DNA from: Clostridium sp. AM49-4BH
GTDB lineage: Bacteria > Bacillota > Clostridia > Lachnospirales > Lachnospiraceae
NCBI RefSeq assembly: GCF_003478335.1
Contig: NZ_QUFB01000034.1
Location: 1-31,751, forward strand
DNA length: 31,751 nt
Direction: 5' to 3'
Shown: in pieces, positions 17,532 through 30,566 of the stretch
How the letters are laid out: every line of letters begins with the position of its first letter
How positions within the stretch are numbered: the stretch's first letter is position 1
Translations under genes and position numbers: made by a program
Notes under the pieces: generated by a model
The model's input: only the letters and a program-made list of their open reading frames with translations
The model's database searches: none
What the model was told of the DNA's origin: nothing

Positions 17532-18683
17532 TTACTCATTCATTTCATCTCCAGATGGCACTTTGGTCTCCTCTGGAGCCTTCGTTGGTTCTTTTGTTGG
17601 CGCCTTCGTTGGCACCGGTGCTTTCGTTGCAGCCGGTGTTTTGACCGGTGCTTTCGTAACTGTTGGTTTCTTAGTCTTCTTTGGCTTCGGCGCATGTGTC
17701 CGCTTTGGAGCTTTCGTTTTCTTAGGCTTAGCCGACTTAGTCGGTGCAGACGACTTGGACGGTTTCGGTGTTTTCTTCGGTTTATACGAAGGATTTGGTG
17801 TCGGTGCAGAAGTCATCTGTGGCTCCTTTGGTGCTCCAGTATCCGTATCCTTAACCTGATCTTCCGGTTTCACCTTCTTATCTACAGTTGTCGTCTGATA
17901 ATACTCCTCCAACGTTAATTTCTTCTTATACAAGCGCTTTGCCAAATTCTTGCCAACATAACGAATATGCCATGGCTCATAAGAATACCCTGTAATATCT
18001 TCTTTCTCCTTTGGGTATCGGATCGTAAATCCATATTTATAGCAGTTACTTGCCAGCCATTTCCCCTCGATCGTCTTTCCAAAGGACTGCTCCAACGCAC
18101 AGCCGATCGAGTCTGCAGAGACATCTATCGTAAGACCGGTCTGATGTTCACTACTGCCCGGAAAAGCGGATACCTGATTCGCTTTCTTCTTCCCTTTTGT
18201 ACTGACATTTCGATTGTAAATTTCTTTTTGGCGGCTGTAAGAACGATATGCCGATACTCCTTTTAATGAAATATTCTGCTCTTTTGCCCCCGCAAAAAGC
18301 TTCTCAAGCGCTGCCGCTGCATCTTTTCTCATATAGCTTTTCTCATACGTCCCATAAAAGCTAAACGGCACATCCGGCACTACCAGATCTTCCGGAATAT
18401 ATTCCTCCGGCAATAAATACTCTCGATTAACAAGCACAGTAATGCTCTCTGGATCCGTATCCACCTGAATCAGTGGTGCTTTCGTTGCTCCCGGTTCACT
18501 CGAACTTTTCACGTCTTTGTCCTCCGGATGATCATTATCCTTATAATAATATTCATATCCGGATGTCTTGGTGCCTTTATGATCGGATGTGTCTTTGCCT
18601 GCAAATAATTTTTTTCCACACAAAACACCGGCAATTGTCAAAAAGACAACTGCCCCTGTTACTATCATTCTTTTTTTCCTCAT
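17532..18683 (-). CDS. VanY-type D-alanyl-D-alanine carboxypeptidase (M15B) with a Lys/Pro/Thr-rich tail
   Basis: 383 residues. These zinc peptidases trim the terminal D-Ala from peptidoglycan stem peptides outside the membrane. An N-terminal anchor (about 6-24) follows a basic start. The M15B motifs are clear: SAYRSYSRQ, SEHQTGLTIDVS (zinc ligands His180 and Asp187) and EPWHIRYV (Glu236, His239). From about residue 287 to the end lies a 95-residue low-complexity tail of K-A-P-T and T-K-A-P-like repeats with very few other residues, probably extended and threading through or binding the anionic wall. GGGGA precedes the ATG at 18683; the longer frame adds 23 implausible residues. The acyltransferase follows closely. 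Confidence 0.93.
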   Translation of the reverse strand: MRKKRMIVTGAVVFLTIAGVLCGKKLFAGKDTSDHKGTKTSGYEYYYKDNDHPEDKDVKSSSEPGATKAPLIQVDTDPESITVLVNREYLLPEEYIPEDLVVPDVPFSFYGTYEKSYMRKDAAAALEKLFAGAKEQNISLKGVSAYRSYSRQKEIYNRNVSTKGKKKANQVSAFPGSSEHQTGLTIDVSADSIGCALEQSFGKTIEGKWLASNCYKYGFTIRYPKEKEDITGYSYEPWHIRYVGKNLAKRLYKKKLTLEEYYQTTTVDKKVKPEDQVKDTDTGAPKEPQMTSAPTPNPSYKPKKTPKPSKSSAPTKSAKPKKTKAPKRTHAPKPKKTKKPTVTKAPVKTPAATKAPVPTKAPTKEPTKAPEETKVPSGDEMNE

Positions 18684-18800
18684 CGTATCCCCACATTCTA
18701 ATCTGTATTCTTCTGAACTTCCCACACACTTCGTATAGAAAGCTTCTACCATAAAATCATAGCATAGTCGTGTAAAATTTCTATGACAAATATATTACAT

Positions 18801-18829
18801 TTGCTTAAACAATCAGCATCGTCTATACT
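18801..18829 (+). promoter_or_regulatory. Probable promoter of ispE
   Basis: TTGCTT (18801-18806), a 17-bp spacer and TATACT (18824-18829), about 95 bases before the ispE start. The leader can form a GCTGCAT / ATGCAGC hairpin at 18840-18860. The -35 matches only 3 of 6. Confidence 0.45.
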
Positions 18830-18923
18830 GATAGAAACGGCTGCATTCTTTGCATGCAGCAGAAACAAGTATACAATATCAGGCTTGTTCATGCAAGCAT
18901 CATTACAAACAAGGAGGTTTGAT

Positions 18924-19804
18924 ATGGATAAAATAACGGTAAAAGCACCCGCCAAAATAAATTTGACTCTGGATGTCCTCGGGCGTCGTGAAAACGGCTA
19001 TCATGACCTGCGCATGATCATGCAGACGATCGACCTGTGTGACGAAGTCACGATCGAACAGATAACTGCTGAAGAAATTACCCTTTCCATGAATAAGGAG
19101 CTCCTGATGGCTGCCCTATGCAAAAAAATCTTGTGTACCGCGCAGCAATTCTTATGAAGGAACGCTATGCTCTGCCGGATGGCATGAATATCATTTTGAC
19201 CAAAAATATCCCTGCGGCAGCGGGTTTAGCAGGCGGCAGCAGTGATTGCGCAGCCACGCTCTTGGGAATTAACGAACTATATAATCTGGGCTTGTCCCTC
19301 GATGAACTGTGCGACATTGGTGTTACGCTTGGCGCAGATGTGCCTTTCTGCATCCGCAAAGGAACAATGTTGTCGGAGGGCATTGGCGAAATACTGACTC
19401 CGCTGACTCCACTTCCATCAATGTGGACATTACTGATCAAACCAAATATTTCCGTTAGCACCGCTTATGTTTATGGCAATCTTGATCTGCAAAAACAACT
19501 GGATCACCCGGATACGGATGCGGTTTTAGATGCGATCGCACACTGCGATGGAGCCAAAGTCGCACACTTACTCAGTAATGTATTGGAGACGGTGACGATT
19601 CCGAAATATCCTGTCTTAGCAGAGCTGAAACAATTTCTGTTGGAAAACGGCGCTGTTGGTGCGTTGATGAGCGGTAGCGGTCCGACTACTTATGGATTAT
19701 TCCAAGACGAAATTGCGGCACGCATGGCTCTGTCCGCTGCGACACAAAAGTACACCAATTATGATGTCATTTTGTGCCAGACGAAAAATGTACCGGCGCT
19801 ATAA
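18924..19804 (+). pseudogene. ispE: 4-diphosphocytidyl-2-C-methyl-D-erythritol kinase, interrupted by a frameshift
   Basis: IspE phosphorylates CDP-methylerythritol in the MEP isoprenoid pathway. The start has a perfect AAGGAGG site. The first frame gives about 58 good residues ([20 protein letters not shown], then [20 protein letters not shown]), then turns non-family near 19101. The rest continues in the -1 frame: [19 protein letters not shown], the GHMP ATP-binding motif PAAAGLAGGSSD, and the C-terminal GALMSGSGPTTYGLF. Together they give a normal-length IspE of about 290 residues, with no other damage. The break is equivalent to one missing base, most simply between 19098 and 19105, where the second frame reads PDGCPMQKN into the conserved region, or in the A7 run at 19122-19128. 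See the finding on sequence error versus true frameshift. Confidence 0.9.
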
Positions 19805-19828: not shown

Positions 19829-19922
19829 ATAATATGAGAGAAGAAACGCTCGTGTTATACGAAAACAGTCCGTGTGCCACGGATGGCAGCGGTTAACAAG
19901 CAAAGAAAAAGGAGGTTCAATT

Positions 19923-20561
19923 ATGGATTTAACAGCAACAAGTGGTGTTCTAGGTACATATACTGCTGAAGCAGCAACGGTGAACAGCCAGGCAGCAGCC
20001 AAGCCGGATACCACAAATTCTTCATCTGCAGCGAAGAAAGAGGATTCTTCTGTGGTATATGAGAAGTCGACAACCACAAAGAAAGATTCTGCCAATCAGA
20101 TCTACAACCGCGATAACATTATCGCAAAGTTAAAGAAAGATCAGGAGTCCCGTATGACTTCCATGCAGAATCTTGTACAGAAGCTTTTGAATAAACAGGG
20201 CAGTGTATTTGATCTTGCCAATGGAACAAATTTGGCGGCTACATTCCGCAAGGCTGCTGCAAATGCAGATCCTGATACGATCAAAGCAGCACAGGAAGCA
20301 ATCTCTGACGATGGTTACTGGGGCATAAAGCAAACTTCTGACCGCATGGTAAGTATGGCAATTGCTTTAACCGGTGGCGATACTGACAAGGCAGACGAAA
20401 TGATCTCTGCTATTGAAAAGGGATTTAAGCAGGCGACGAAATCCTGGGGAGAAGATCTTCCTGATATTTGTCAGAAAACATTGGAGGAGACAAAGAAGAA
20501 GATGAATGATTGGAAAAACGGCGTAACGACTGCCGCTGATTACTCTGATTATTTATCATGA
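19923..20561 (+). CDS. Conserved protein of unknown function, sigma-D regulated
   Basis: 212 residues, no signal peptide or membrane segment. The N-terminal 60 residues are Ala/Ser/Thr-rich and probably disordered (TYTAEAATVNSQAAAKPD). The middle is helical and charged (NRDNIIAKLKKDQESRMTSM), and the C-terminal half contains ISDDGYWGIKQTSDRMV, ALTGGDTDKADEM and GFKQATKSWGEDLPDICQKT. I recall similar proteins in Lachnospiraceae annotated as hypothetical, with the DGYWG-x-x-QTSDR stretch as the most conserved part, but no function. AAGGAGG lies 8 bases before the ATG. The sigma-D promoter upstream places it with motility and chemotaxis genes; a flagellar or surface-associated role is inference. 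Confidence 0.85.
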   Translation: MDLTATSGVLGTYTAEAATVNSQAAAKPDTTNSSSAAKKEDSSVVYEKSTTTKKDSANQIYNRDNIIAKLKKDQESRMTSMQNLVQKLLNKQGSVFDLANGTNLAATFRKAAANADPDTIKAAQEAISDDGYWGIKQTSDRMVSMAIALTGGDTDKADEMISAIEKGFKQATKSWGEDLPDICQKTLEETKKKMNDWKNGVTTAADYSDYLS

Positions 20562-20666: not shown

Positions 20667-20709
20667 GCGGGGCACTTTGGATATATGTCAAGGTGCCCCG
20701 CTTTTTTTT
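20667..20709 (+). terminator. Intrinsic terminator of the sigma-D-regulated gene
   Basis: GCGGGGCACTTTG (20667-20679) pairs with CAAGGTGCCCCGC (20689-20701), 13 bp with one G-U, a 9-base loop and then eight T's. Very strong. Confidence 0.93.
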
Positions 20710-20738
20710 GATCGGAAATTGCTGTTGTGTAGCGTGAC

Positions 20739-20768
20739 AAAAGCAAAGCGCTGGCTTTGCTTTTTTAC
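20739..20768. terminator. Repeated hairpin, likely terminator of the FHA operon
   Basis: GCAAAGC (20743-20749), a 4-base GCTG loop, and GCTTTGC (20754-20760), flanked by AAAA and TTTTTT, so it can act in both directions. The 29-base core 20740-20768 is identical to the hairpins in the tandem repeat at 8283-8372. A GGAAATTGCT block also shared with those repeats lies 16 bases further away here. Confidence 0.82.
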
Positions 20769-22015
20769 CCAAGCCGGATTACTTCCTCATCGCCAAGAAG
20801 ATAGACCATTGTACCCGGTCTGGCAAGCGTATAGCTGTCCGTCCGCAAGATCTTGCCATTTGACATCTTGATCGGCTGACTTGTATAGGCGATCACACGA
20901 TACTGTCCGATCAGGGAATCATATCGTACACCGCAATGTCGACGACTAATACCAGAATGTGTGACCACAATGTCACATAATTCCAAACTATTGCCAAGAA
21001 TAACCTCGGCATCCGGCTGCATAACGAAATCCTGTCCGGATAACTGTCCCCGTACTCCTTGAATGTGCCCACTGCCATCATACTGCATCGGAAAACATTC
21101 TAATTCGGGAGCAAGCTCTTTTTCTGCTGCTTCCTCCGGTCTTTCCGCTTCTCTGACCGCCTGTGGCATCGGAGCCATTGGAAATACCTCCCAATTCTGA
21201 ACTTCTTTCGGCTCATATTCTCCGTGATGCACTTCCTCGATCTCGACAAGCTCCCGTTCCGGCCGACACACTGTAAAATAAGCAAAGCTCAACAGTATCA
21301 GCAAGCCCCCCAACAATATCTGTATAAAATATCCGCTGTCCGCAAATCCCCACAACACCGCACGAATGGAGTATTCTCCCACACCCGGGATTGCAAGAAC
21401 GCCCTCGGACACCATTTCATAAGACTGCACCGCCGACTGCATCTGCTCCCACAAAAGTTCCGGGATCACAGTCAGCCACGCCACACCAATCCCGATCGTC
21501 ACTGCACCATCCAAAAAGATCAGTGTCCGCGGGGTTTTTCGTCGCAAAAGCATATACGAGCAAACTACCAGCCCCATTAACGCCGGTGCAAACAGCATCG
21601 CTCCCATAATTTGCAGCACCATCTGAATATCACTGGTGCGCAGAGAGTATCCCTCTTGTACCTGAATTCCCTCAAACGCCAGATCCGCCCCGCTGCTCAA
21701 ACACCATCCCGCCAGATGCAGTCCATCAATGCTGTCCTGTCTGCCATGTAATGCTTCATCTGCTTTTTGTTGATATTCCTTGGCTTTGGCTTCCCGCATG
21801 GACGTACCACGTTCGTAGTTGTCCGTAACCTCATATGCCCCGGCTTCCCTGGCTTTACCGGCAGCGATCTGTTCTGCCTCACGGTTGATCTCCATCGCAA
21901 CCGACACAAAACGGTCTCCGGTAATTTGCAGCCACGGCATAAGAAGTACGGCACTCTGCATCAAAAGCAGGAGTGCCGCCAAAAATATTTGCCATTTAAA
22001 ACCCTTTTTTTCCAT
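20765..22015 (-). CDS. Membrane protein with C-terminal degenerate FHA domain
   Basis: 416 residues. TM1 is at about 9-29, then an extracellular-sized loop rich in Glu, Ala and Lys (about 30-130), and three more hydrophobic segments (about 132-157, 165-190 and 230-250). A Glu/Pro-rich linker leads to an FHA-like domain (about 325-416). FHA domains bind phosphothreonine; ISRRH and the NG turn (SNGK) are kept, but the Gly-Arg that contacts phosphate reads ILGNS, Asn for Arg, so phosphopeptide binding may be lost or changed. It starts one base after the stop of the pseudokinase gene, so it is tightly coupled to it. It is probably a membrane-bound partner in the same complex. The repeated hairpin follows its stop. 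Confidence 0.85.
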   Translation of the reverse strand: MEKKGFKWQIFLAALLLLMQSAVLLMPWLQITGDRFVSVAMEINREAEQIAAGKAREAGAYEVTDNYERGTSMREAKAKEYQQKADEALHGRQDSIDGLHLAGWCLSSGADLAFEGIQVQEGYSLRTSDIQMVLQIMGAMLFAPALMGLVVCSYMLLRRKTPRTLIFLDGAVTIGIGVAWLTVIPELLWEQMQSAVQSYEMVSEGVLAIPGVGEYSIRAVLWGFADSGYFIQILLGGLLILLSFAYFTVCRPERELVEIEEVHHGEYEPKEVQNWEVFPMAPMPQAVREAERPEEAAEKELAPELECFPMQYDGSGHIQGVRGQLSGQDFVMQPDAEVILGNSLELCDIVVTHSGISRRHCGVRYDSLIGQYRVIAYTSQPIKMSNGKILRTDSYTLARPGTMVYLLGDEEVIRLG

Positions 22016-22016
22016 A

Positions 22017-23303
22017 CTATTTTACTTCCAAATATATTTCATATCGATTTGATACCAGATAAATCCGCTCTCCCGGCACCACTTCAGCCACACGTCCTCT
22101 TCCGATAAGTCCACGCACAGTAAATGTACCATTAGCTGACATATCCTTCACCAAAAAGATATTTTTGCGCTTATCATAATGGATCATACAATGCAGACGG
22201 CTGACATTGTCACCATCTACAACAATTTCGCAGTCCTCTCCCGAACGTCCAACACGAATATCTCGATTCGGTTCGATCTTCCATTGACGCATTTCATCAC
22301 CAACTTTGAGGCGTAAATACGGATCCATCTTTGGCGTTCCTTCTGCGGCATCCAATGCTTCCACTAACGCCGGCATGGTCTGAATGCGCTCCCAATACAT
22401 AACCGCTAATGCCTGTTTTAACATATTACTGATACGCTCCGGGATATCCTTATTCTCCACGTTTGCCGCTGATAGCAATGTCCCCTTGCTGCGTTCGATC
22501 GCCGAAATAGGTTTTACGCCCGTGATCATATAATAATACACTGCTGCCAATGCATACACATCTGTCCAAGTTCCCTGTCCGTCCGGTCCGGCATACTGCT
22601 CCGACGGTGCAAATCCCTCTTTCATCACTGCCTCTGTACCATTGATCTCGCTGAGCACATACTGCTTTGTCGCTTCAAAGTCAAGCATTTTGACCGTGCC
22701 GTCCTGCAGGATCCATATCGAATCCGGTCCAATTCCACGATGCAAAAGACCCAGTTTGTGCAGATCCTCTATTGTCCTCGCAACGGACCGAAGTATCTGC
22801 CCCGCCTGTTGACATGGTATCGGCTCCCCGGTACGAGTAATATATTCTTCTATCGTCTCTCCGGAAATATATTCCATCAATAAATATGCCGTGTCATTTT
22901 TGCGCAGGAAATCCCCCGTCTCTGCTAAAATTGTTTCCTCACTGAGTGCACGAATGATCTTTGCCTCATTTTCCAACACATCCATTCCTGCTTGAAAAGA
23001 TTCTGCATTTGCCCCTTCCTGCACCTTGACATGGATGCCATCACCGGAACGCACCGCCCATGCAGCCGGGAAATACTCCCGCAACGCATAGATCTTCTCA
23101 GTACGCAGATCCTGCGCCAGATACGTGATCATGACATCATCCTGTGTGATCACACGGCCCATCGCGTAATGCTGTCCCAATACATAATCATCCGGCAGCG
23201 CACACTGCGGACGATCTTCCTTTACATAGCCACATTTTTCGCATCTTCCCCCCAAATATGTCCCCTTTTGAAAACAATTTGGACATAACTTTTGTGTTGT
23301 CAC
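22017..23303 (-). CDS. Zinc-ribbon Ser/Thr pseudokinase with C-terminal FHA domain
   Basis: 428 residues. A zinc ribbon opens it (Cys7, Cys10, Cys21, Cys24). A protein-kinase fold follows (about 45-320), recognisable from ITYLAQD, LREYFP, LLMEYISGET, the HRG and LDFE positions and FAPSEQY. The catalytic residues are gone: the Gly-rich loop reads TQDDVM, the VAIK lysine is Arg75, HRD is HRG (Gly190), the catalytic-loop Asn is Ser195, and DFG is DFE. An intact-looking FHA domain ends the protein (about 340-428: Gly352-Arg353-Ser354, Ser368-Arg-Leu-His, Asn391-Gly-Thr). It should bind a phosphothreonine partner rather than phosphorylate. Its start overlaps the stop of the FtsW-type gene by 4 bases (ATGA). 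Confidence 0.9.
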   Translation of the reverse strand: MTTQKLCPNCFQKGTYLGGRCEKCGYVKEDRPQCALPDDYVLGQHYAMGRVITQDDVMITYLAQDLRTEKIYALREYFPAAWAVRSGDGIHVKVQEGANAESFQAGMDVLENEAKIIRALSEETILAETGDFLRKNDTAYLLMEYISGETIEEYITRTGEPIPCQQAGQILRSVARTIEDLHKLGLLHRGIGPDSIWILQDGTVKMLDFEATKQYVLSEINGTEAVMKEGFAPSEQYAGPDGQGTWTDVYALAAVYYYMITGVKPISAIERSKGTLLSAANVENKDIPERISNMLKQALAVMYWERIQTMPALVEALDAAEGTPKMDPYLRLKVGDEMRQWKIEPNRDIRVGRSGEDCEIVVDGDNVSRLHCMIHYDKRKNIFLVKDMSANGTFTVRGLIGRGRVAEVVPGERIYLVSNRYEIYLEVK

Positions 23304-24538
23304 TGTTCTTCCTCCTTCTCCAGTTCAGCACGTTTACGCTGTAAACTGCGTCGCATGTGATACCTGTTTACAGATAGCACAATCCCCATTTCCGCTAACG
23401 TAAACAACACCGCAGATCCACCATAACTGATAAATGGAAGCGATGCTCCCGTATTCGGGATAATCGTCAATACAACGCCAACATTGATAAGTACCTGTAA
23501 TGAAATGTGGAACGCAATTCCCATGACTAACACTTTACCAAATAAATTCTCACTATTTACAGCAATTCGAACCAAATGGTAGATCAAAAACAAAAACATA
23601 GCCAGTAAAACTACCGCTCCCACCAATCCCAATTCCTCACAAACGATAGAAAAGATCATATCGTTCTGTGCCTCGGGAATTTTGTCTAATTTTTGCACAC
23701 TGTTGCCTAACCCCTTGCCAAATAAACCGCCGGAGGCAACAGCATATTTGCCCTGTAATGGCTGAAATCCTTGATCTCCTGCATAACGCTCCGGATCTAT
23801 CCACGCATAAAAACGCCCCATACGGAAAGATGACGAAGAAGCATTTAGCTGTTTTTGCGTCGGCAGATTCTTAGCAAGAAGTTTTCTTCCTACAAAAATG
23901 CCGATCAGACCAATCCCGGCAATGATACCATGCAGTTTCTCCTGATTGGTAAACACAAACGAAAGCATAAAACCAATCCCTAAAATGATCAACGCTGATG
24001 ACAGGTTATTACTAATGAACATGACCATCCCCGCTGGTATGATCGTAAAGAATATCCACAAATACACTGCCATATTTTTGAACCGCTGTACCTGATTGGC
24101 ATGTTTCGCCACAAATGCTGCGATCATGATGACCATCGCAATCTTAACCAATTCGGCAACCTGCAATTGAACCGGTCCCAGGCGGATCCAGCGCGCTGCA
24201 CCATGAGAGCGTACAGCAAGCCCCGTTCTCAGCAAAAAGAGAGATCCCACTGAAACCAAAAAAATGATCGGTGCAAGCTTTTGCAGATAGTTGTAATTAA
24301 AATACTGTAATAATAACATCACAACAATGCCTGCCAGCACAAATATCCCCTGCTTTTTTAATAAATACAAGGAATCATAATTGTACTTTGCCAGTGTACT
24401 GCAACTGTATGCCGATGCACTATATATCATGATCAAACCAAACACATTTAATAGTATAACGCAGGCGATCACGCGCAGATCAATTCGATCCATTTGGCGA
24501 ATATAAGCATCCAAAGATCGTTTTACTGATTTCTTCAT
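23300..24538 (-). CDS. FtsW/RodA/SpoVE-family (SEDS) peptidoglycan glycosyltransferase
   Basis: 412 residues, normal for SEDS proteins, which polymerise lipid II into glycan strands. About ten membrane segments follow a basic N terminus. Conserved stretches include IMIYSASAYS in the first helix, ARWIRLGPVQLQVAELVKIA (the R-W-I-x-L-G and Q-x-x-E-x-x-K signature), the large loop with YAVASGGLFGKGLGNS and PEAQNDMIFSIVCEELGLVG, and near the end GASLPFISYGGSA. Whether it serves division, elongation or sporulation cannot be told; no paired transpeptidase is in the window. The start has AAGGA about 12 bases upstream. It overlaps the pseudokinase gene by 4 bases, making a three-gene unit with the two FHA proteins. 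Confidence 0.93.
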   Translation of the reverse strand: MKKSVKRSLDAYIRQMDRIDLRVIACVILLNVFGLIMIYSASAYSCSTLAKYNYDSLYLLKKQGIFVLAGIVVMLLLQYFNYNYLQKLAPIIFLVSVGSLFLLRTGLAVRSHGAARWIRLGPVQLQVAELVKIAMVIMIAAFVAKHANQVQRFKNMAVYLWIFFTIIPAGMVMFISNNLSSALIILGIGFMLSFVFTNQEKLHGIIAGIGLIGIFVGRKLLAKNLPTQKQLNASSSSFRMGRFYAWIDPERYAGDQGFQPLQGKYAVASGGLFGKGLGNSVQKLDKIPEAQNDMIFSIVCEELGLVGAVVLLAMFLFLIYHLVRIAVNSENLFGKVLVMGIAFHISLQVLINVGVVLTIIPNTGASLPFISYGGSAVLFTLAEMGIVLSVNRYHMRRSLQRKRAELEKEEEQ

Positions 24539-24632: not shown

Positions 24633-25298
24633 CTAGTCAATCACTTTGATCGCAGTAATCTTCGGCTGCTGATCTGCAGGCACCGTACCATTGTTGTCGA
24701 TTGGCTGCACAGACTGACAGATTTTATCGACGATGTCCATTCCGGCAGTCACTTTACCAAATGCTGCGTAATCTCCATCCAAAAAGTCGGAATCCGCCTG
24801 TACAATAAAAAACTGACTGCTGGCGCTGTCCGGATCATTCTGCGTACGCGCCATGGAAATCACACCACGTTTATGAGACATCGTATTCTCTATGCCATTT
24901 GACTTAAACTCACCTTTGATCGTCTCCTCAGATCCGCCGGTACCATCTCCATTCGGATCGCCCCCCTGGATCATAAATCCGGACATGATCCTGTGAAAAG
25001 TCAAGCCATTATAGAACCCTTTCTTCGCCAAATTAACAAAATTGGTTACCGTGATCGGTGCAACATCTGCATCCAACTCTAATTCCAGCTTGCCATACTC
25101 TGCAATCACAATCTCTGCATGATGTTTTCCCGTCAAATATTGACTGTTAGAGGTGTCTGCATCTTTCTTCTCCGCAAAAGATTCTTTCTTCGTCGTCTTT
25201 GCAGTGCTCTTATCTGCATTTTCTCTTGTGTCACCACATCCGGTCAGACATAATGACAACAGCGCTGCCATCAATATTATGCTAATTAATCGTTTCAT
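24633..25298 (-). CDS. Cyclophilin-type peptidyl-prolyl isomerase, lipoprotein
   Basis: 221 residues. The signal sequence ends in a lipobox (LTGC, Cys21), so it is lipid-anchored outside the membrane. A Lys/Asp/Ser-rich linker (about 22-52) leads to a cyclophilin domain (about 57-221) with [42 protein letters not shown] and SSQFFIV. The catalytic Arg (FHRI) and the Gln/Phe pocket residues are kept. It should assist folding of exported proteins. GGAGG lies 6-8 bases before the ATG. It lies 94 bases upstream of the FtsW-type gene on the same strand with no terminator between, so it may be first in a four-gene transcript. Confidence 0.94.
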
Positions 25299-25509: not shown

Positions 25510-25627
25510 GTATGATATAATATTCTTTACAAATTTAGGATATATATTACAGATCCTATCAAATGAACGGTATGATAAGATAGATATATTGGGGAATATA
25601 CTTACTTTACCGGAGGAGGAATTTATA

Positions 25628-27561
25628 ATGAGCAAACTGAAAATACCACACAAAAAGAAAGCCATGGATGAGAACACCATCTCGAAACCAAAGCGTTCTT
25701 TACGGTCAAAACACAAACGGAAAAAATCCAAAAAAACAACTGCTATTAAAAAGGAACGTCCAAAGAAGAAACGCAAAGACCGCACAGCAAAAGTACACAC
25801 CAAAAAGAAAGACAAAGCCGTTTCAACCAAAGCAGGAAGCGTGAGTACTGCCAAGCGTTTTCGTCTTCTGACATTTTCGCGCAAAATGCTGCTTCTTTGT
25901 CTGGCACCCATGATGTTGATCTGCATCCTTATCACTGTTTTCAGCCGTCAGTCATTGACCAAGTCGGTTGAGAACGAGATCGATAATGCTTTGAAAATCG
26001 TTGCTATTTCGCTGGATGAAACTTACAGCAATCTCTATCAGGGCGATTATGAACAGGATAAATCCGGCAAGATCAAAAAGGGTGATGTTAGTATCTCAGG
26101 TAATACTGATCTGATCGATGCTTTGAAAAAACGCACTAACTATGATATTACGCTTTTCTTTAACGGTATGCGTCTGGTTACTACGCTTCGCAACGATGCC
26201 GGTGCACCGGCTAACGGTACCCTGGCAGATTCTGCAATCTACGAGAAGATCATGAGAGGCAAGACTGTATTCCTGTCAAATGTAGAGCTTTATGGCAAAG
26301 AATATTATGTATTGTATCAGCCTCTCGTAAATGCTGATGGCACAATTGCCGGAGGTATAGGTGTCGCTAAAGATGCAACAGACGTAAAAAAAACAATTGC
26401 TGCACAGACGAGACGAATCACATTGATTTCCATCGTTCTGTTGGTGCTCGCAGCAGTTTTGATCATCTTCCTGACGACACGAATGGTTTTGGTTATGAAG
26501 TCTACCAAACATTTTCTTGCCAAATTGGCACAGGGTGAATTTGGCGCCGATCCAAAGCAAAAACATATGAAACGAAACGATGAGCTTGGTGATATTTACC
26601 GCAGTTCCGTACGATTACAGCAAGAGTTGCGCAAGATTGTTGATAATATCAAACAATCTTCAGAAAGTCTGATCAACTCAGCAAATCAGTTAACCGGTAT
26701 GGCACAGTCCACACGGACCACTGTGGATTCCGTATGTGATTCTATGCGCGGTATCACTGATGCTTCTGTCACCCAGAACGAGGAAACCACTGTGGCTATC
26801 GGCAACGTACAGGGCATGGCGAATGAGATTGCCTATATTTCAAACATTATGGATTCTTTGACGCAACACGCCAACCAAATGTCAGAAGCAGAACAGGCCT
26901 CTGAAACGATCATTCACCAGTTAAATGCTTCTAATGAAGAAACCATAGATACGATCACCAATGTTGCAGAACAGATCAATGCTTTGCACTCTTCGGTAGA
27001 TCGATCCAAACGGCGATCAATATGATTCAAAGCATTGCCGAAGAAACCGATCTGCTATCTTTAAATGCTAATATCGAAGCAGCACGTGCCGGCGAGTCCG
27101 GACGCGGTTTCTCCGTTGTAGCGACACAGATCAGCAAACTTGCCGATCAGTCTAATTCGACCGCAGAAAATGTCACTGATATTATCGCTAATATCATTGC
27201 AGAAGCAGATCGCATGGTTGAAATGATGGGTGACGTGAAAAATAAAATTCACGAACAGCAGGAAAAGCTGGATGACACAATGGATAAATCAAGTGCTGTT
27301 GCACTTGGCGTTAATAATTCCCTGCGCGATATTGATACGATCCGCAATAAGATCAGCGTACTCAGCCAGTCTGGTGATTCGATACAGGATATTGTAACAA
27401 ATCTCGCATCTATCGCAGAGCAAAATGAGTCCTCCACACAGGCAACAATGGACTCTGCACTCGGCATGAGCGATACAATGAACTCATTGGAAAATGCATC
27501 GGAAAGTTTGAAGGATATGGCACATGCATTAGATGAATCTCTGGTTCGTTTCAAGATGTAA
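25628..27561 (+). pseudogene. Methyl-accepting chemotaxis protein, interrupted by a frameshift
   Basis: Chemoreceptor split near 27000. The first part (25628-27025) has an unusually basic N-terminal tail (about 34 Lys/Arg in 79 residues), TM1 (about 87-106), a Cache-type sensor (YDITLFFNGMRL to GGIGVAKDATDV), TM2 (about 265-290), a HAMP-like region and the first signalling helix. It ends in an out-of-family RSKRRSI. The second frame (-1; readable from before 27022) continues [20 protein letters not shown] and [20 protein letters not shown], the hallmark hairpin tip, and runs to 27561. Joined, they give a complete receptor. The break is equivalent to one lost base at GATCGATCC (26998-27006). 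GGAGGAGG precedes the ATG. Without correction the signalling tip would be lost. Confidence 0.9.
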
Positions 27562-28871: not shown

Positions 28872-30566
28872 TTACGCATCCGTTCCGATCAACACCTTTT
28901 TCCCTTCAAACGCAAATCCATAATGACGGATCCGATCTGTCGGAATGTCCTGTGCCAACAACTCGGCATCGTAATTTTTCTCCTGAATCTGTTTCAAAGC
29001 GGACTGGACGGTATCCTGCAGAGATGTCTCCTCGTCCGGTTCATGCACCTTAAACTCCATCACAATAGCATTATCGTTCTTCTCCTCGGGTACCAGCATG
29101 ATATCGTATCGTCCATATCCACTCTCCCTGTTAGATCGAATCTGGTATTGCTCTCTCAGATCCGACAGCAATCCCAGCACAAATCCATGATAAAATCTCT
29201 CCGGCTGGCTCTTTGCAGAAGGTCTTCTTCCTGTGTCAAAACTGCTGAAAGTCGCAAGTGCCACATCATTCATATAAATATTCATTTCCTTGAGATTTCC
29301 CTTTAACAGTGCTTTCACAAATTCATTGTAGTTCGCATCCTGGTTTTCAAACCATCCCGCAAACATACTTTCAAACATGCTTTCCGTTTCCAGATTGGTA
29401 ATCGCGAGATGATACCACGGTTTATTCAGCCTTCCACGATGCTCCACCTGATCTGCTTTTAGATAACCACTGGCAAGCAGAAGGCTCCAAATTGCATTTT
29501 CATTGTGATCAAGCTGGTTATATACGATCTGCTCGTCAAAATTCACCACGATCTCCTGTCCTTTCAGCAGATCCTCCATTTTCTCTTTCACATCCACAGA
29601 TGCCGTCCGGATCAATCGACTCACAAGCCCATTGGAGCTGGTCGCTGCCCAGTAAGCTCGCAATTTCCCTTCATCCAAGTAGTTTGTAATGGACCACGGA
29701 TTATAGATATCACGATGTTCTCCAAAGTTGAATCCATCATACCACTGCTTTACGTCATCCTTTTTATTAGACATACCAAACTCATCCAACGCAGCAAACA
29801 CCTCCGGCTCCGTAAAGCCAAAGCATTCTGCATATATATCGGATGTTGTCGTTACTACACGAAGGTTATTCAGATCGGAAAAAATTGATTCCTTGGACAC
29901 TCTGGTAATTCCTGTCATAATGGCTCGTTCCAGATAAGAATTTGTCTTAAATGTCGCATTAAACAAACTTCTGATAAAGGAAGTATATTCATCCCAATAT
30001 CCCTGCAGATATGCTTCCTGCATTGGTGTATCATATTCATCCAAAAGAATGATGACATTCTTACCATAATAGCGGTACATCCAGGCAGCCATGTTTCTAA
30101 TTGCTTTCTGTGCAGTTGTATCGTCCATCTGTTCCGTCGTTCTATTATATAGCCTTCTCTCGTTATCACTCAGTATGTCTTTTTTTAACAGATATCTGTT
30201 TTCTTCATACAATACTGCTATTTCCTGTTTAATCTGTATCTTCGCCTCCGTCAGATTATCTGCTTTTACCGATGCAAAACTCAAAAAGATCACCGGATAG
30301 GTTCCCTGTAGCTGGCGATACTTCTCTTCCTCCCAGATAGAAAGTCCCTCAAACAGATCTGCCCGGTTGGCATATTTATTTGAGAAGAAACACTCCAGCA
30401 TGCTCATATTCAAGGTCTTTCCAAAACGACGGGGACGGGCGATCAATGTAATGTCATCTTCCTTTTCCCACCACTCTTTGATGAAATTAGTTTTGTCAAC
30501 AAAAAAGTTGTCATGCTCCCGTAAAGACGAAAAACTCTGCTTTCCTATACTGATCGTTTTTTTCAT
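28872..30566 (-). CDS. DUF1703-type AAA ATPase with C-terminal PD-(D/E)XK nuclease-like domain
   Basis: 564 residues, full length. The N-terminal AAA-ATPase_like domain has the opening KQSFSSLREHDNFFVDKT, a Walker A of the form RPRRFGKT (about residues 44-51) and a Walker B NVIILLDEYDTPM (about 168-180). The C-terminal domain matches the PDDEXK_9 pattern: GRYDIMLVPEE, then IVMEFKVHE (D, then E-x-K), typical of nuclease folds. The family is expanded in anaerobic gut bacteria, often in many copies per genome, and its role is not established; mobile-element association or defence are proposals only. AGGTGAG precedes the ATG. The neighbours on its upstream side are mobile-element scraps. Confidence 0.9.
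   Translation of the reverse strand: MKKTISIGKQSFSSLREHDNFFVDKTNFIKEWWEKEDDITLIARPRRFGKTLNMSMLECFFSNKYANRADLFEGLSIWEEEKYRQLQGTYPVIFLSFASVKADNLTEAKIQIKQEIAVLYEENRYLLKKDILSDNERRLYNRTTEQMDDTTAQKAIRNMAAWMYRYYGKNVIILLDEYDTPMQEAYLQGYWDEYTSFIRSLFNATFKTNSYLERAIMTGITRVSKESIFSDLNNLRVVTTTSDIYAECFGFTEPEVFAALDEFGMSNKKDDVKQWYDGFNFGEHRDIYNPWSITNYLDEGKLRAYWAATSSNGLVSRLIRTASVDVKEKMEDLLKGQEIVVNFDEQIVYNQLDHNENAIWSLLLASGYLKADQVEHRGRLNKPWYHLAITNLETESMFESMFAGWFENQDANYNEFVKALLKGNLKEMNIYMNDVALATFSSFDTGRRPSAKSQPERFYHGFVLGLLSDLREQYQIRSNRESGYGRYDIMLVPEEKNDNAIVMEFKVHEPDEETSLQDTVQSALKQIQEKNYDAELLAQDIPTDRIRHYGFAFEGKKVLIGTDA

Follow-up and report, generated by a model that had tools for sequence, protein, structure and literature searches.

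In the genome of the gut bacterium Clostridium sp. AM49-4BH, a three-gene locus encoding a SEDS-type glycosyltransferase, a predicted pseudokinase fused to an FHA domain and a membrane protein with a degenerate FHA domain looks like the collapsed form of a larger, kinase-bearing cluster. The locus is contained in a stretch of 31,751 nucleotides, which was analysed at its full length and is referred to here as the window. This history of the locus, a collapse of the cluster from its large form, is fairly well supported, and we tentatively propose that the second protein has become a phosphothreonine-reading adaptor on an accessory SEDS protein, with the phosphate being supplied in trans. To our knowledge, the control of SEDS polymerases by Ser/Thr phosphorylation is poorly known outside Actinobacteria.

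Organization of the locus

The three genes and their surroundings comprise the following features.

23300..24538, reverse strand: gene 1, SEDS glycosyltransferase, 412 amino acids (PF01098; alignment to E. coli MrdB and to FtsW of solved structure)
22017..23303, reverse strand: gene 2, predicted zinc ribbon-pseudokinase-FHA protein, 428 amino acids (Pkinase and FHA matches, motif table, AlphaFold2)
22020..22316, reverse strand: gene 2 FHA domain, approximately residues 330-428 (Pfam, motif residues)
20765..22015, reverse strand: gene 3, membrane protein with C-terminal degenerate FHA domain, 416 amino acids (PF00498, model)
20667..20764, reverse strand: two terminator-like hairpins 3' of the gene 3 stop codon (by eye; absent from the scan hits)
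24633..25298, reverse strand: cyclophilin gene, upstream synteny anchor (PF00160, 161.6 bits)
19872..20561, forward strand: conserved hypothetical gene, downstream synteny anchor in convergent orientation to gene 3 (no Pfam match)
18783..19804, forward strand: IspE, further downstream anchor, split (named by eye)
17532..18752, reverse strand: VanY-type carboxypeptidase, further downstream anchor

The open reading frames reproduce exactly the coordinates, the 4-base overlap between genes 1 and 2 and the 1-base gap between genes 2 and 3 that had been reported in the initial annotation, with the start codon of gene 2 being a GTG that overlaps the SEDS stop. Judged from this spacing, the three genes are probably made together. 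The overlap itself is not conserved, as the equivalent pair is 28 bases apart in the related genome G410. A scan for promoters and terminators offers no evidence for an operon, since its counts of 20 (shuffle mean 15.3, sd 3.7) and, in a second count, 8 (shuffle mean 6.3, sd 2.8) show no clear excess. A cyclophilin-like neighbour was also recognized by eye in the relatives' loci L027, L151, L153 and L158.

The SEDS glycosyltransferase

The assignment of the first gene to the FtsW/RodA type is borne out by a match to the Pfam family FTSW_RODA_SPOVE (PF01098) of 289.8 bits (cut-off 26.4), which at residues 23-394 encompasses the whole protein. Its scores against the NCBIfam FtsW equivalog TIGR02614 (293.8 bits) and NCBIfam rodA (243.6 bits) are below the respective cut-offs of 337.5 (curated) and 336.7 bits. 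Asp293, located in the motif PEAQNDMIF, aligns with the Asp of PERHTDFIF in E. coli MrdB, which we take to be the putative catalytic Asp of the SEDS polymerase. The clade containing gene 1 is separate from dcw-, min- and PBP-linked SEDS proteins. By these features of its sequence, gene 1 is an accessory FtsW-like SEDS glycosyltransferase and putative lipid II polymerase.

A predicted pseudokinase with an intact-looking FHA domain

The AlphaFold2 model of gene 2 (mean pLDDT 90.2) displays a ribbon, a kinase and an FHA domain, the latter two of which are matched by Pfam with 71.1 bits (Pkinase) and 42.0 bits (FHA). The families detected in the Pfam scan are kinase and FHA, with no match to MurJ/MviN. 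The closest solved chain, both by sequence and by fold, is PpkA (5hnv; 7.1e-30; TM 0.91 by target). The kinase had been described as lacking all main catalytic residues, which does not apply to all of them: the Gly loop is lost, Lys75 is replaced by Arg, Asp190 of the HRD motif by Gly, Asn195 by Ser and Gly210 by Glu, whereas Glu113 of helix alpha-C, Asp208 of the DFG motif (here DFE) and His188 and Arg189 of the HRD motif are kept. With its Gly loop, beta3 Lys and HRD Asp lost, gene 2 does not qualify as an active Hanks-type Ser/Thr kinase by its motifs. The pattern is common to eight distinct proteins, namely the window protein and seven others with 58-87% identity to it, and is thus not a slip in one sequence. 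Residues 55, 57, 58, 75 and 210 show the same new letter in all eight of these core pseudokinases. At position 75, which is Arg in the window, P0001 has Pro. Gene 2 is full length in seven of the eight, with P0008 starting late (407 amino acids), and its window and G410 versions differ by 0.19 at codon position 2 and by 0.58 at position 3, indicating codon-level constraint. We thus classify gene 2 as a predicted pseudokinase, with a kinase fold whose degraded catalytic motifs are conserved among relatives.

The FHA domain of the same protein, by comparison, is more conserved than the kinase domain within the pseudokinase group. It retains Gly352-Arg353, Ser368, His371 and Asn391, presumably the residues of the phosphopeptide site, which are kept in 9/9 distinct main-clade pseudokinases, P0015 included. 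The domain looks intact, as had been noted initially, and is predicted to bind phosphothreonine; at the window locus it is the only FHA domain to keep the respective motif.

A membrane protein with a degenerate FHA domain

The model of gene 3 (pLDDT 75.5) contains long helices that fit four spans and an FHA domain at residues about 314-416, which scores 22.9 bits against PF00498 and is found among the listed Foldseek and VIA-align matches. The reported replacement of the phosphate-binding Arg by Asn is confirmed for residue 342 (LGN), and the protein has an altered NGT turn as well; by both motifs, the phosphothreonine site of the window protein is degenerate in sequence. The Asn is found in five distinct gene 3 sequences, including that of the window, and the relatives P0125-P0128 have also lost the FHA Ser. 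At the equivalent position, the genomes G001 and G002 carry the Arg, whereas G412 is without the FHA domain and the locus of G410 lacks the entire gene. Gene 3 is therefore not a constant partner.

Related loci carry intact kinases

Two metagenome-assembled genomes, recorded as a Eubacteriales bacterium (G001, locus L001) and as an uncultured Clostridium sp. (G002, loci L002 and L027), contain a large form of nine genes that starts with SEDS, an Ig-like surface protein, an intact kinase-FHA protein and a PP2C phosphatase, and that additionally comprises a pair of FHA proteins, two further kinases and an Arg-bearing gene 3. In G002 this large form is flanked on both sides as in the window, and in G001 the window flanks are matched across a contig break. 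The intervening genes are absent from the window. Since these relatives hold the same neighbourhood with working-type kinases, the window locus looks like a collapsed form of the larger cluster, and comparison with the relatives suggests the large form to be the ancestral one.

The original view of an arrangement without a local kinase is not supported by this comparison, as the neighbourhoods of G002 and G001 contain the intact kinase-FHA protein, two more kinases and PP2C. Intact kinases in the same gene order had been named as the finding that would contradict it, and this objection applies in part: such kinases are present in both genomes, with one gene intervening between SEDS and kinase. 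We thus regard as very unlikely an independent, Actinobacteria-like design that never had a local kinase and that uses phosphothreonine binding to gate lipid II polymerization. Such a design would agree with the adjoining SEDS, pseudokinase and FHA genes and the intact-looking FHA domain of gene 2, but the three kinases and PP2C are in place in syntenic relatives and the motifs are intact in 19 other FHA-bearing relatives compared. The absence of a local kinase is largely refuted, unless the large cluster was inserted secondarily. The initial annotation as a whole is partly supported by our analysis: its catalytic losses are conserved, and its gene order extends beyond one strain for the SEDS-pseudokinase pair, which is retained in G410 and, across a contig break, in G412, with gene 3 not being a constant part of it. 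In both of these genomes, a PASTA-type kinase with intact motifs was identified by eye. The lineage is rare, being found in 2 of 28 genomes and, in a set of 397, in the centre genome itself only (E 1e-60; at most four candidates scored per genome).

In the gene 2 tree, ten degraded kinase rows are located on one side of a branch (91/85), which provides moderate support for a grouping of the altered kinases. In a 40-row SEDS tree, the hosts of pseudokinases do not form one clade and P0152, a SEDS protein probably from the same contig as P0015, falls with the active clade. AU tests, those of SEDS being run on 19 chosen rows, did not reject a single clade of the SEDS proteins from eight pseudokinase loci (p 0.097) or from seven without P0164 (p 0.186), nor a grouping of P0015 with six active kinases (p 0.186). 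A placement of both P0010 and P0015 outside the active six and the core eight was rejected (p 7.4e-20). A single origin of kinase loss is favoured by the gene 2 tree but not recovered in the SEDS tree of 40 rows, and P0015 may or may not share it. As all cases lie in one lineage, the association of kinase and FHA loss is not a statistical result.

A proposed collapsed signalling cluster and its possible function

A neutral history, where a deletion made SEDS and a leftover kinase-FHA protein neighbours without any functional link, appears unlikely to us. It would account for the SEDS relatives without a kinase neighbour in the examined stretches of G004, G408 (gene near the contig end) and G422, for the separation of SEDS and kinase in the large form by an Ig/LRR surface protein gene with gaps of 166 and 236 bases, for the variation at residue 75, for the decay of gene 3 and for the lower conservation of the kinase domain. 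The mostly full-length reading frames of the core pseudokinases and their codon-level constraint argue against it, as does the fact that G410 and G412 have retained the pair but not gene 3 or, respectively, its FHA domain.

In our preferred, although tentative, scenario of a collapsed phospho-signalling cluster, an ancestor would have carried between cyclophilin and IspE a nine-gene cluster with an active zinc ribbon-kinase-FHA protein, PP2C and two more kinases. The intervening genes would then have been lost and the leftover kinase degraded in its catalytic motifs, with the FHA domain of gene 3 losing its phosphate site and that of gene 2 keeping its motif. The gene 2 FHA domain may now dock to phosphothreonine that another protein, probably the PASTA kinase, generates in trans, while its pseudokinase domain would serve as binding surface, thereby tying the activity or placement of SEDS to a phosphorylated partner and leaving gene 3 as a residual, phosphate-blind and dispensable part. 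A bolder version, which we consider possible but rather doubtful, describes a local kinase-phosphatase-FHA circuit at SEDS that has turned into a one-way reader, whose surviving FHA domain connects the accessory FtsW-like polymerase to a cell-wide kinase such as the PASTA kinase PrkC: its own kinase would have died and become the sensor body, the phosphatase and sister kinases would have been deleted and the second reader become blind.

Alternatively, the gene 2 pseudokinase might bind the blind FHA domain of gene 3 as a phosphorylation-independent scaffold, providing a membrane platform for SEDS. This would fit the degradation of both domains in the window, the YukC pseudokinase-YukB FHA contact, judged phosphorylation independent in the accessible part of the source (PMC9600267), and the binding between PpkA and Fha described in excerpts of PMC12607579. 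The pseudokinase is, however, kept in G412 and G410 without the gene 3 FHA domain or gene, the intactness of the FHA domain of gene 2 would be left unexplained, and a catalytic mutation in PpkA weakened Fha binding (PMC12607579, in part), which together render this analogy improbable.

In the one-way reader version, SEDS would be the target of a pseudokinase-FHA adaptor, and the full circuit would still exist in living relatives. The locus would also allow the conversion of an active bacterial kinase into a pseudokinase to be traced, and it may illustrate the way in which a phosphate switch is deprived of the kinase that belonged to it. Among the relatives, this neighbourhood occurs with both live and dead kinases and with a gene 3 that is intact, blind, truncated or absent. 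They constitute a natural series in which the contribution of kinase activity could be told apart from that of either FHA domain.

Comparison with known systems

Among the listed literature matches on SEDS, FHA and kinase clusters and on bacterial pseudokinases, none describes this locus or names the active clusters of G001 and G002. Both motifs have precedents in MviN-FhaA and T7SSb YukC-YukB. In Mycobacterium, the available parts of two sources (PMC11898655, PMC12599244) describe a complex of the MviN (MurJ) pseudokinase with FhaA and an operon of fhaA, fhaB, rodA, pbpA, pknA, pknB and a phosphatase gene. The complex resembles our locus in tying a pseudokinase and an FHA domain to a lipid II step, and the operon resembles the large form in that genes for FHA proteins, kinases and a phosphatase lie close to a SEDS gene. 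In these excerpts, the mycobacterial pseudokinase resides within the flippase and a separate FHA protein reads its phosphorylated tail, whereas in the window a single protein next to SEDS contains both domains, and the Pfam scan of eight window proteins revealed no PBP.

In the T7SSb pair YukC/EssB and YukB/EssC, a pseudokinase is likewise combined with FHA domains without phosphate-binding residues, these residues being described as not conserved in YukB or EssC in the accessible text of PMC9600267, which reports detection of the YukC-YukB contact in E. coli. This system is a secretion apparatus and not SEDS, gene 2 additionally carries a zinc ribbon and its FHA domain looks intact, and EssC is not found among the same eight proteins. 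The T6SS PpkA-Fha pair provides the nearest solved kinase to gene 2 and equally couples a kinase to an FHA protein, but the T6SS depends for its function on active PpkA according to the available portion of PMC12607579, whereas gene 2 is devoid of the corresponding catalytic residues. The large-form clusters of G001 and G002, finally, share with the window the flanks and related SEDS, kinase-FHA and gene 3 proteins, and are distinguished by their intact kinase motifs, by the Arg in gene 3 and by additional genes for two kinases, PP2C, a pair of FHA proteins and the Ig/LRR protein.

A SEDS gene joined to two genes for FHA proteins

ORF calling places three genes on the minus strand, which overlap by 4 bases at the first junction and are 1 base apart at the second, at exactly the positions reported in the initial annotation:

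23300-24538, minus strand, SEDS ORF
22017-23303, minus strand, kinase plus FHA ORF (gene 2)
20765-22015, minus strand, weak-FHA ORF (gene 3)

Elsewhere, the scan of window proteins found domain matches to AAA-ATPase_like and the nuclease PDDEXK_9 in one protein (28872-30566, minus strand). Pfam assigns 289.8 bits to the SEDS protein, 71.1 (kinase) and 42.0 (FHA) to gene 2 and 22.9 to the weak FHA domain of gene 3 (cut-off 20.7). The SEDS protein stays below the NCBIfam cut-offs for both ftsW (293.8 vs 337.5) and rodA (243.6 vs 336.7), can be aligned to E. coli MrdB and to FtsW of solved structure and retains Asp293, which we take to be the catalytic aspartate. Genome G002 contains four SEDS genes in four contexts, as labelled by eye from their neighbours (a dcw cluster, beside min genes, beside a class B PBP and the cyclophilin locus L027), which fall into four tree clades (L160, L161, L162, L027). 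The L027 SEDS protein and its relatives fall in a clade nearest the dcw form, a placement to be read with caution as the tree contains long branches elsewhere.

Two plus-strand genes of the window are each divided into two overlapping frames. IspE (18783-19804) is a single frame in loci L001, L002 and L151 of relatives, so its split is due to a sequencing error or to a genuine disruption of the gene. The other, a methyl-accepting chemotaxis-like gene (25589-27561, identified by eye), resembles undivided frames at L151 (15155-16882) and L153 (3260-5443).

Loss of catalytic residues in gene 2

Gene 2 encodes a zinc ribbon together with a kinase fold and an FHA domain (AlphaFold2 model, mean pLDDT 90.2); among proteins of known structure, the T6SS kinase PpkA is closest to it, both by sequence (7.1e-30) and by fold (5hnv, TM 0.91 by target). 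The initial statement that all main catalytic residues are missing goes a little too far: set against 19 relatives whose motifs are intact, the protein has lost the Gly loop, Lys75, Asp190, Asn195 and Gly210, but Glu113, Asp208, His188 and Arg189 remain. The losses themselves are conserved. In a comparison of 31 rows (29 distinct), the Gly loop and HRD are degraded in nine distinct rows (the window, P0002 and P0004-P0010), eight of which share Arg75 and DFE, the exception being P0010 (Lys retained, ELG); P0015 is partly degraded (HRN, DIG, Lys retained) and the remaining 19 are intact. The ten degraded rows occupy one side of a branch in the gene 2 tree (support 91/85), and the window and seven further pseudokinases with the same loss pattern all carry the identical new residue at five of the changed positions (55, 57, 58, 75 and 210). 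In the near-identical database protein P0001, residue 75 is Pro in place of the Arg found in the window; the site is thus not strictly held, a hint at relaxed constraint on the former catalytic Lys.

The FHA domain, initially described as intact-looking, retains its motif in all ten degraded rows. Within the eight pseudokinases it is more conserved (55/99 invariant) than the kinase domain (93/285), the reverse of the six closest active proteins (67/99 vs 221/285), although the values are descriptive and would shift with the choice of sequences. Between the window and relative G410, codon positions 1, 2 and 3 of gene 2 differ at 0.30, 0.19 and 0.58, so the gene is under constraint at the protein level.

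A larger, active cluster in relatives

Scanning genome contigs with the gene 3 alignment identified five loci. In L001 and L002, of the metagenome-assembled genomes G001 and G002, gene 3 is followed as in the window by hypothetical, IspE, VanY, acyltransferase and GH25 genes (assigned by eye in the relatives). Upstream on the L002 contig, L027 encodes a cyclophilin, the SEDS protein, a 1149-aa Big_2/LRR protein and the kinase-FHA protein; a PP2C, two FHA proteins and two kinases lie between the latter and gene 3. In G001, SEDS and cyclophilin genes are on one contig and the kinase gene on another, both ending at the expected points. In both genomes the kinase-FHA protein has every catalytic motif and gene 3 its Arg. 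The initial proposal that no local kinase activity is involved is largely contradicted by these relatives, where the same flanks (in G001 across a contig break) enclose an intact kinase-FHA, two further kinases and a PP2C. The simplest reading is that six genes disappeared from the window locus while its flanks were conserved; a gain of six genes by a small locus appears less likely, since the kinase with degraded motifs is the derived state and the outgroups of the tree have intact ones.

At L028 and L029 (G002:C4), L004 and L031 (G004:C5), L152 (G410:C33) and L005 (G005:C11), several zinc ribbon kinases cluster with PP2C phosphatases, FHA proteins and surface or secreted proteins, as recognized by eye. 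These islands lie on contigs or in positions with no SEDS match close by, and our kinase-cluster literature search returned no paper. They may represent a separate signalling system in gut Clostridia.

Distribution

Among 28 genomes searched in the group, the SEDS gene adjoins the pseudokinase in G410 and likewise in G412, where gene 2 leaves its contig and resumes on that of gene 3; G001 and G002 carry the active form. Contigs of equal length point to a linked SEDS gene for P0006, P0007, P0009, P0010 and P0015 as well. The SEDS-pseudokinase pair extends beyond one strain; gene 3 is not a constant partner, the gene being missing at the locus in G410 and its FHA domain missing in G412. Across 397 family genomes (up to four candidates scored in each), a close gene 2 occurs only in the centre G410 (the other match at E 1e-60, in G366, is 34% identical), full-length gene 3 only in the centre G002 and SEDS relatives (E up to 1e-85) in 53. 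In G004, G408 and G422, the SEDS relatives have no kinase gene beside them within the regions retrieved. The arrangement is therefore a narrow lineage trait.

Decay of gene 3 and a proposed role for gene 2

The gene 3 protein is modelled with long helices compatible with four passes through the membrane, followed by a disordered linker and an FHA fold. Its phosphate-binding Arg is kept in 15/15 rows outside the window group (P0131-P0140, G001-G004, G420). In G001, G002 and G004 the contig of gene 3 also carries an intact kinase-FHA, and in G003 and G420 a different contig does; partner kinases were seen for these five of the 15 rows. The replacement by Asn noted initially recurs in the window species and P0125-P0128, with an altered turn and, in P0125-P0128, additional loss of Ser (the fragment P0130 was left unscored). 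Same-sized longest contigs indicate that P0005 and P0128, and likewise P0008 and P0127, are probably neighbours. In G412, the gene 3 product is 295 aa long, and reading the contig's first 1300 bases by eye in the three forward frames revealed no FHA sequence after the stop. In G410, a hypothetical gene directly follows gene 2, and the gene 3 search yielded just two other FHA matches, one being gene 2 itself.

These two genomes bear on a scaffold in which the gene 2 pseudokinase domain would contact the degenerate gene 3 FHA independently of phosphorylation. Such an arrangement has a good published precedent in the pseudokinase YukC and the degenerate FHA domain of YukB, whose interaction was judged phosphorylation independent (PMC9600267), but is weakened by the two relatives that keep the pseudokinase without gene 3 or its FHA. 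We favour gene 2 as an adaptor on the SEDS protein, because its FHA is the sole intact-motif reader left at the locus and the SEDS-gene 2 pair survives in the window, G410 and G412. A phosphothreonine made in trans would be bound by the gene 2 FHA, and gene 2 would bind the SEDS protein, a contact that may alter polymerisation. In both G410 and G412, a gene for a PASTA-type kinase whose motifs are intact lies next to a PP2C gene (by eye), and both genomes have further kinase matches, so the phosphothreonine could come in trans. The window locus is best seen as a reduced phospho-signalling locus, real and conserved in a narrow lineage.

Comparison with known systems

The review PMC12599244 names the families ActPs1-3, CP1, DYD and DLHK; the term 'zinc ribbon' does not occur in it and 'FHA' occurs once. 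In mycobacteria, FhaA is proposed to act via the phosphorylated pseudokinase domain of MviN, and an operon groups fhaA/fhaB with rodA, pbpA, pknA, pknB and a phosphatase gene (PMC11898655, PMC12599244). Although no PBP gene was seen in the full cluster of G002, unlike the pbpA-containing operon, the two are alike in their kind of grouping.
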